Assembly (NCBI GenBank): GCA_016213775.1
Contig: JACQZR010000197.1
Location: forward strand, 1 to 64,000
Length of the DNA stretch: 64,000 nucleotides
Direction: 5' to 3'
From: Acidobacteriota bacterium
Lineage (GTDB): Bacteria > Acidobacteriota > Terriglobia > Bryobacterales > Bryobacteraceae
Part shown: in pieces, positions 54,708 through 56,167 of the stretch
Layout: every line of letters starts with the position of its first letter
Position numbering within the stretch: position 1 is the stretch's first letter
Program-made: the position numbers and the translations under genes
The notes under the pieces: model-generated
What the model was told of the DNA's origin: nothing
Databases searched by the model: none
What the model saw: the letters and a program-made list of their open reading frames with translations, nothing else

Positions 54708-55568
54708 CTAAGCCGGTAGCTTATCCGGATTGGCGATGATGAACACCTCCTGGATTGCCTCCCCGTCCCGCGCCGGTTCAATAAACAGCACGGACTGCAG
54801 ACTCCCGTCCGCGTAGTGCGATTCGATCGCGGGCTCCCCAAAACGCATCGTGAATTCGCTGGTCACGCCTTCGGGGATCTTCTTCATGATGCCCAGGAAG
54901 AACCGCGTGATGTGCTCGGCGCCATAAATTGGGTTGAGTGCCGAACGCACCTTGCCGCCGCCATCGGTCCGCAGCCGCGCGTCCTCCGCCAGCAGGTTCA
55001 CAAGCGCGCCGCTGTCGCCGGTGCGGCAGGCCGCATCAAAGCGCTCCAGCAATTCGCGAATCCGCTTGCGGTCGGCTCGCTGGCGGGCGCGGCCGGCGGC
55101 GATCTGCTTACGCGCGCGCTCCAGCAGTTTGCGGCAGTGCGCTTCCCGGGTCTCCAGAACCTCCGCGATCTCGCGAAACTCGTAACCAAGAACATCGCGC
55201 AGCAGCAGCACACAGCGCTCGGGCGGCGACAGAGTCTGCAGCAGCACCAGGAACGCGTACGACAGCGAATCGGCGAGGTCATTCGCGGCCACGGCAGGCT
55301 CCGGCAGCCAGGGGCCAATGTAGTCAAAGCGTTTGCTCTCCACCGAACGGATCTGATCCACACAAATCCGCGTGGTGACGGTGCCCAGCCACGCCGCCGG
55401 ATTCTGAATGGATTCCTGGCGCGCCGAGTTCCACCGCAGCCAGCACTCCTGCAGAGCGTCCTCGGCATCGGCGCGCGTGCCGAGCATGCGGTGCGCGATC
55501 CTCATCAGACGCGGCCGCTGTTGCTCGAACGTCGCCGCGCGGTCTCCTTGAGGCTTTTCCGCAATCAC
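54708..55568 (-). CDS. ECF41-type sigma factor with C-terminal SnoaL-like domain
   Basis: A 286-residue ECF sigma. Region 2 at about 12-80 (LMRIAHRMLGTRADAEDALQ, WLGTVTTRICVDQI), region 4 at about 115-165 (LSPPERCVLLLRDVLGYEFREIA), then a SnoaL/NTF2-like domain (about 180-286) ending with the conserved NPDKL. In ECF41 factors this C-terminal domain takes the place of an anti-sigma and modulates activity; the usual neighbour is a carboxymuconolactone decarboxylase (CMD) family gene, exactly as here. GTG 55568 overlaps the CMD stop (GTGA), which fixes the start over the longer frame to 55631 and shows translational coupling. Confidence 0.92.
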   Translation of the reverse strand: MIAEKPQGDRAATFEQQRPRLMRIAHRMLGTRADAEDALQECWLRWNSARQESIQNPAAWLGTVTTRICVDQIRSVESKRFDYIGPWLPEPAVAANDLADSLSYAFLVLLQTLSPPERCVLLLRDVLGYEFREIAEVLETREAHCRKLLERARKQIAAGRARQRADRKRIRELLERFDAACRTGDSGALVNLLAEDARLRTDGGGKVRSALNPIYGAEHITRFFLGIMKKIPEGVTSEFTMRFGEPAIESHYADGSLQSVLFIEPARDGEAIQEVFIIANPDKLPA

Positions 55569-56110
55569 CCGGCGAACCCCGCTGACTCGATGCCGAGCGC
55601 GTGGTTGAAGCGCGCACGGTAATTCTCCCACGCGATAGTGGCGGCCAACTCCACAATCTGCCGATCAGTGAAGTGGGCGCGCAGTTCCTGGTGGAACACG
55701 TTTTCTGTTGCGGCGGGCGTTAGCGTCATCTTTTCAGCCATTCTCAGTACAGCACGTTCCGCCGGCGAGTAGGCACCGCTCGTCTCGTACTGGAGAACAT
55801 CGAGAATCTGATCCTGTGTGAGATTGGCACGACGGCCCACGGCCGTCCCGATGTCGATTCAGAACGGGCATCCGATCCGCCGGGCGGTGGCAAGGGAGGC
55901 CAGAACCTTCAGCTTCTGGGGCACCCTGCGCATGCGCAGTTGGCCCAGTTCCACCATAGTGACTCCGAACATCAGGGAGGGATGGTGGCTGGCGGCGCGC
56001 GTCGAATCGGGCAGCACCGCTTTGCCCGTGGTTTGCTCGATCCCCTTGCGGGTGAACCAGGACGTCGCACGCACGAACCAGCCGGTGTTTTCGGTGGGAG
56101 TGATTCTCAT
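55565..56110 (-). CDS. CMD/AhpD-like selenoprotein (in-frame UGA as Sec84)
   Basis: A 181-codon carboxymuconolactone-decarboxylase-family protein, read through one in-frame UGA at 55861-55859. Up to it the protein reads ...RRIGCPF; after it IDIGTAVGRRANLTQ... and the family C-terminus RARFNHALGIES. Relatives have CxFC here, so UGA replaces the second Cys, giving C81-P-F-U84. A perfect hairpin follows 11 nt after UGA (see bSECIS entry). The stop overlaps the ECF41 sigma GTG, so the gene is coupled and not obviously decayed. AhpD-like CxxC proteins are peroxidases or disulfide reductases; Sec would raise reactivity. The alternative is a nonsense mutation or sequencing error splitting the gene into 55859-56110 and 55565-55840. 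Confidence 0.82.
55831..55847 (-). promoter_or_regulatory. Bacterial SECIS-like hairpin (bSECIS)
   Basis: Perfect 7-bp stem GACGGCC/GGCCGTC with a 3-nt GUG loop, in the mRNA of the CMD gene. The loop begins 19 nt after the UGA (18 nt between) and its first base is G. Published bSECIS models ask for a stem-loop with G in the first two loop positions at about 16-37 nt from UGA, which this meets. Confidence 0.75.
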
Positions 56111-56167
56111 GACACGGGGGAGACGAAACAGACCCCGCGCCTGTGACAGGAATTTACTTCACTTTAG

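Follow-up and report, generated by a model that had tools for sequence, protein, structure and literature searches.

A CMD/AhpD-like gene in the window, by which we mean the whole 64,000-nucleotide stretch of an Acidobacteriota bacterium analysed here (assembly GCA_016213775.1, contig JACQZR010000197.1), carries an in-frame UGA at codon 84 that is very probably read as selenocysteine (Sec), as judged from sequence comparisons. The locus most likely corresponds to a two-gene operon, in which the CMD/AhpD-like gene is followed by an overlapping gene for an ECF41 sigma factor, the two being predicted to be co-transcribed (Table 1). CMD/AhpD-like selenoproteins with a CxxU motif have been known since 2005, and the window gene adds another to them. 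The link to ECF41 is less expected than the Sec reading, and is the part of this work worth following.

Table 1. Features of the putative selenoprotein operon; positions are counted from the first base of the window
Feature	Position	Strand	Description
CMD/AhpD-like selenoprotein gene (predicted)	55565..56110	minus	181 codons, Sec at codon 84; translated with TGA=U
In-frame UGA, codon 84	55859..55861	minus	second Cys position of C81-P-F-U84
bSECIS hairpin (predicted)	55831..55847	minus	7-bp stem GACGGCC/GGCCGUC, GUG loop
ECF41-type promoter TGTCACA-n16-CGTC (predicted)	56122..56148	minus	exact match to the consensus (PMC3426412)
ECF41/SigJ-type sigma factor gene	54708..55568	minus	286 aa, WLPEP linker motif, likely GTG start

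The CMD/AhpD-like gene runs from an ATG at 56110-56108 to a final TGA stop at 55567-55565. An earlier note on this DNA had described a frame that is open and family-like on both sides of a single UGA, and had placed this UGA on the second Cys of a CxxC motif. The frame was confirmed, as was the position of the UGA by translation, and we add the minus strand, as the earlier note gave none. The residues surrounding the codon are G-C81-P-F-U84-I-D-I-G, and the match to the Pfam family CMD (PF02627; 42.6 bits, cut-off 23) covers residues 63-126, spanning the UGA. This well-supported selenoprotein gene is of the kind that ordinary gene calling breaks at the UGA; for instance, the program-made list of open reading frames splits it there into two frames. 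A screen of both strands of the window yielded 1749 TGA triplets; for 51 of them, the frame stays open for 70 codons or more both before and after the TGA. Only four of the 51 make CxxU or UxxC, and two of these four are followed by a hairpin whose stem reaches 6 bp and whose loop has G within its first two bases. When a fold limit of <= -7.5 kcal/mol was added, the TGA at codon 84 alone remained.

The AlphaFold model of the protein (pLDDT 88.8, pTM 0.84) is all-helical, as the CMD/AhpD fold is. Foldseek matched the model to 33 PDB chains at E <=0.001, comprising Bmp8 and AhpD/CMD-like proteins, with query-normalised TM-scores of 0.64-0.83. The debrominase Bmp8 was the top match (E 2.6e-08, TM 0.82-0.83), followed by AhpD-like proteins, and also ranked first among the solved relatives in a single-sequence search (3.9e-11); in a family-profile search, other CMD proteins ranked above it. 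The CxxC pair of Bmp8 (PDB 6ohi, 6ohj) aligns with C81/U84, but Bmp8 shares only about 21% identity with the window protein and has Cys, not Sec, leaving a transfer of function unsupported. The M. tuberculosis AhpD chains matched the model poorly (1gu9_A, E 0.36, TM 0.48), and the AhpD core domain model TIGR00778 scored 20.6 bits, below its cut-off of 27.8. AhpD carries a His four positions past its second Cys (CxxC...H); the corresponding residue of the window protein is Gly88, at a position where His or Asn occurs in some homologues. Because of Gly88 and the poor match to M. tuberculosis AhpD, the strict AhpD mechanism may be inapplicable.

From the modelled fold, the ranking of the relatives and Gly88, we favour a Sec/Cys thiol oxidoreductase, with the balance tilting towards an activity on peroxides; for a peroxide-type substrate taken by itself, the chance is about even. 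In the most likely chemistry, (i) the selenolate of Sec84 would attack a peroxide-like or other electrophilic substrate, (ii) Cys81 would resolve the Sec84 intermediate as a selenenylsulfide, and (iii) a cellular thiol reductant would then reduce the selenenylsulfide. A different proposal, which is compatible with the Sec reading and differs on the substrate, is that the enzyme is a Bmp8-like reductive dehalogenase, in which Sec attacks the halogen as in deiodinases, enzymes that use Sec. We regard this as a minority view, and an unlikely one: Bmp8 is indeed the best solved relative both by sequence and by fold, but its identity is low and it is outranked by CMD proteins with the family profile, while the two flanking genes that were scanned encode the sigma factor and an M23 peptidase and give no hint of halogen chemistry. 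By title and abstract, the Bmp8 literature among the matches listed dealt with mammalian topics.

The reading of codon 84 as Sec, on which the favoured thiol chemistry builds, was examined in 51 loci including the window's own (10 from the contig search, 18 from the family sample, 21 from the phylum sample and 1 from the genus). Two distant matches in the own genome (L040 and L041; 28% and 25%) were excluded, as were duplicate fetches of genes already counted (L060, L082, L084-L087 and L091-L098). The codon at the Sec position is TGA in 40 loci and TGC in nine, the latter being Cys-containing homologues of the kind with which the earlier note had proposed an alignment, and the remaining two loci, L034 and L081, have Ser (one TCG and one TCT). 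A family search over 237 genomes detected the gene in 19 of them at E <=1e-55, and the three loci added from it all carry TGA. In pairs of homologues from UGA loci, dN/dS after the UGA was 0.02-0.19 in all 12 pairs tried, which were hand-picked from near relatives, with L036 and L058 each in two pairs and the window gene in none. By these low values, the part downstream of the UGA is translated and kept in those paired genomes. In a tree of the 51 rows, the Cys label needs at least five changes, so Sec and Cys have been swapped several times; the available text of PMC1794560 describes the change from Cys to Sec as a general trend in bacteria. Some genomes have the family in two UGA copies (G272 with L064 and L080; G131 with L055 and L059). 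In the samples of the window's family and phylum, several genomes encode Sec-type CMD proteins, which also appear in Acidobacteria, Acidobacteriota, Terriglobia and Candidatus Rokuibacteriota records, not in marine metagenomes only.

Besides the conserved codon, the UGA is followed by a putative SECIS element. The perfect 7-bp hairpin with a GUG loop that the earlier note had placed 11 nt past the UGA is present; counting the U of the UGA as base 1, its stem is formed by bases 15-21 and 25-31, with the loop at bases 22-24. The hairpin agrees with the bSECIS model of PMC13188914, as given in the available text of that paper, on five of five points: loop of 3-9 nt (3 in the window), stem of 4-16 bp (7), G in the first two loop bases (GUG), spacing of 16-37 nt (18) and MFE <= -7.5 (-14.9). 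As a single sequence, the 52-nt segment folded is not more stable than its dinucleotide shuffles (z -0.39), of which 66 out of 200 did as well, and the Rfam scans gave no SECIS match, with the SECIS_1 search matching no control genome either and so carrying no weight. The case for the hairpin is one of between-species comparison. For this comparison, each locus was given 2000 synonymous redraws of its codons past the UGA, a null that removes the effect of a conserved peptide. An uninterrupted stem of at least 6 bp was found in 37 of the 40 UGA loci versus 1 of the 11 non-UGA loci, and the mean uninterrupted stem was 6.65 bp in the former (null 3.77) and 3.82 bp in the latter (null 3.48). Taken individually, 28 of the 40 UGA loci and 1 of the 11 non-UGA loci reached P <=0.05, leaving 12 UGA loci that miss this level singly; for the window hairpin, P was 0.039 when the best stem was scored and 0.004 with the register fixed. 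The stem also covaries. Across 36 UGA loci, 92.9% of the cells of the seven pairs are paired and five of the seven pairs show double changes, and none of 500 shuffles reached the observed value on any of five measures. Sliding the hairpin partner by 1-3 bases lowered the pairing to 36-55%. On this evidence, SelB with Sec-tRNA(Sec) would bind the hairpin past the UGA, and Sec would be placed at residue 84.

Among the loci lacking UGA, L034 (Ser) still forms six of the seven pairs when the register is fixed, with a longest uninterrupted stem of 3 bp; these pairs are perhaps a remnant. L034 lies close to Rokuibacteriota UGA loci in the tree, and from this position and the retained pairs it looks as if Sec had been lost recently in this lineage.

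The machinery for Sec insertion is complete in the host assembly (10.96 Mb, 314 contigs, 98.5% complete, 4.6% estimated contamination). Profile scores were 493.9 bits for SelA, 379.6 for SelB and 349.7 for SelD, each above the cut-off, and selC was found as tRNA-Sec (Rfam 77.6 bits; ARAGORN SeC, anticodon tca). The four sel genes, for which the earlier note had proposed a search, are thus all in the same assembly as the window, on four contigs, none of them the window's. Counting against the Sec reading are the fragmentation of the assembly, its estimated contamination and the location of the sel genes off the window's contig. We noticed that the host's own SelD (L024, match 1501-2430 minus) has an in-frame UGA in A-A-G-U-A-S-K-L, the kind of place where Sec is known in SelD; the host SelD is probably itself a selenoprotein. 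A selB match at E <=1e-60 was obtained for 168 of the 200 family-sample genomes, scoring over the cut-off in 166, and among the 11 genomes marked there as own or same genus for 9. Since selB is so common in the family sample, it is to be expected in the host genome. Of the 18 genomes with the CMD/AhpD-like gene, own included, 17 are among the listed selB matches; G131, which is 73% complete and has two UGA copies, is absent among these. The co-occurrence with selB is non-discriminating, being a necessary condition and not special evidence.

The main competing reading of codon 84 takes the UGA for an ordinary stop or for a sequencing or assembly error, the downstream frame being a relic or a separate small gene. 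UGA does serve as a stop in the host genome (4 of the 11 reading frames inspected, the CMD/AhpD-like gene included), and the shuffling test gives no significance to the hairpin by itself. Nevertheless, an active-site UGA in 40 of 51 loci as well as in all three later ones, purifying selection after the UGA in every pair tried and a covarying hairpin make this reading highly improbable. A sequencing error at codon 84, in particular, is very unlikely, because UGA occurs in 39 other loci and the hairpin is conserved and covarying. Least probable of all is that the UGA is read as another amino acid (Trp, or Cys via a special tRNA), since the 11 non-UGA loci have Cys or Ser and none Trp, the Sec pathway is complete, and a SECIS-type hairpin is expected for Sec only, with 10 of these 11 loci lacking a 6-bp stem. 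A stop relic, a sequencing error and other read-through were rejected on conservation, selection, the hairpin and the Sec pathway. The interpretation of the earlier note, namely Sec insertion at the UGA, finds support in the sel genes, the UGA/Cys alignment and the fit to the bSECIS model.

Neither the sigma factor gene next to the predicted selenoprotein gene nor the promoter had been mentioned in the earlier note. The likely GTG start of the sigma factor gene, as predicted from the sequence, overlaps the stop of the CMD/AhpD-like gene as GTGA. Its product matched the SigJ model NF007214 (290.3 bits, cut-off 271) up to residue 305 of 307 when scanned from the GTG at 55631, and scored 299.7 bits against TIGR02957, below the cut-off of 323.25. 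The Pfam scan found sigma regions only, and no domain in the C-terminal extension. WLPEP is characteristic of ECF41 according to the available text of PMC3426412. The ECF41-type promoter has a single exact match in the window, where 0.02 are expected. With spacers of 15-17 allowed, the motif is not rarer genome-wide than its backward control (9 versus 13 matches), so that its weight comes from its placement. Between the -10 element and the ATG lie 11 bases, in which no clear ribosome binding site is seen, and the mRNA may therefore be leaderless or nearly so.

A sigma factor neighbour and the promoter motif coincide in 6 of the 51 loci, three with Sec (the window, L042 and L083; same genus, UGA) and three with Cys (L046, L047 and L049; another genus). 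In the three sigma-linked Cys genes, the uninterrupted stem measures 3-4 bp, and 4-5 of the seven pairs are present. Sigma neighbours outside the window come from tblastn searches with the sigma protein of the window as query (E <=1e-72) and not from a family model, and the region covered after the UGA is shorter than 900 bases in the sigma-negative loci L030, L038, L057, L058 and L062. None of the other 45 loci showed the motif ahead of the CMD gene, the coverage before the UGA being below 700 bases in L029, L055, L073 and L075. A single change accounts for the sigma link in the tree, where the window protein forms a long branch that is weakly supported (83/0) in its grouping with the five other sigma-linked proteins.

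From the gene arrangement and the promoter motif, ECF41 control of the selenoprotein gene appears likely. The ECF41 sigma factor would transcribe the operon from the TGTCACA-n16-CGTC promoter, and would thereby control both the selenoprotein and itself, making autoregulation a part of the proposed scheme. We lean, with less assurance, towards a broader picture: a dedicated ECF41 factor encoded in the same operon would govern the selenoprotein, the partner having either Sec or Cys behind the same promoter, with the stem degraded where it has Cys, and the substrate could be an unrecognised one such as a halogenated aromatic. If this is genuinely the case, the loci would amount to a natural experiment on the advantage that Sec confers within a single conserved regulatory setting. 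The occurrence of both Sec and Cys forms downstream of a shared promoter motif permits a direct comparison. To our knowledge, neither the signal of ECF41 nor the substrate of the CxxU CMD proteins is settled, and the ECF41 link offers a testable handle (inducer, promoter and target) on the roles of both. We found no report on a selenoprotein and ECF41 together in the open-licence literature searched; there, ECF41 with selenocysteine returned one paper, by its listing on biosafety in synthetic biology, and selenoprotein with ECF sigma factor returned nothing on this subject by title.

The statement of the earlier note that AhpD/CMD-like selenoproteins are known from surveys was borne out: CxxU forms were reported in the Sargasso Sea and GOS surveys of 2005 and 2008 (PMC1088965, PMC2398784), and such proteins are tabulated in later reviews (PMC9312934, PMC13188914). 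As far as the available text of these sources goes, a recoding survey of 2005 lists a CMD-type candidate in Geobacter sulfurreducens, and a paper of 2025 puts the number of known selenoprotein genes in one Acidobacteriota genome at three, without naming them. The survey proteins and the window protein alike have pfam02627, CxxU and Cys homologues, as well as a predicted SECIS after the UGA, which for the survey proteins applies to the AhpD-like members. The former come mostly from marine metagenomes, and the available survey text does not mention an ECF41 neighbour, whereas the window gene has one. The best named model for the window protein is NF053654 (GroundWater_YciW, YciW-related (seleno)protein; 87.6 bits), which matches 28 of the 29 members of alignment A1 at E <=1e-10; with a cut-off of 310 bits, the window protein belongs to a neighbouring subfamily and is not a member. 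The locus resembles the ECF41/COE systems of PMC3426412, as far as the available text describes them, in the SigJ-type sigma factor, WLPEP, a co-directional upstream CMD gene and TGTCACA-n16-CGTC. According to the same text, every CMD protein genomically linked to ECF41 has CxxC, whereas the window and two same-genus genomes have CxxU.

Four of the 40 UGA loci (L074, L075, L077 and L079) were omitted from the covariation test, as their hairpin lies two bases further on. They form a second AhpD-like group, in which the motif is C-E-Y-U with UGA, a His is found four residues on, and the displaced loop is GGC at base 24.
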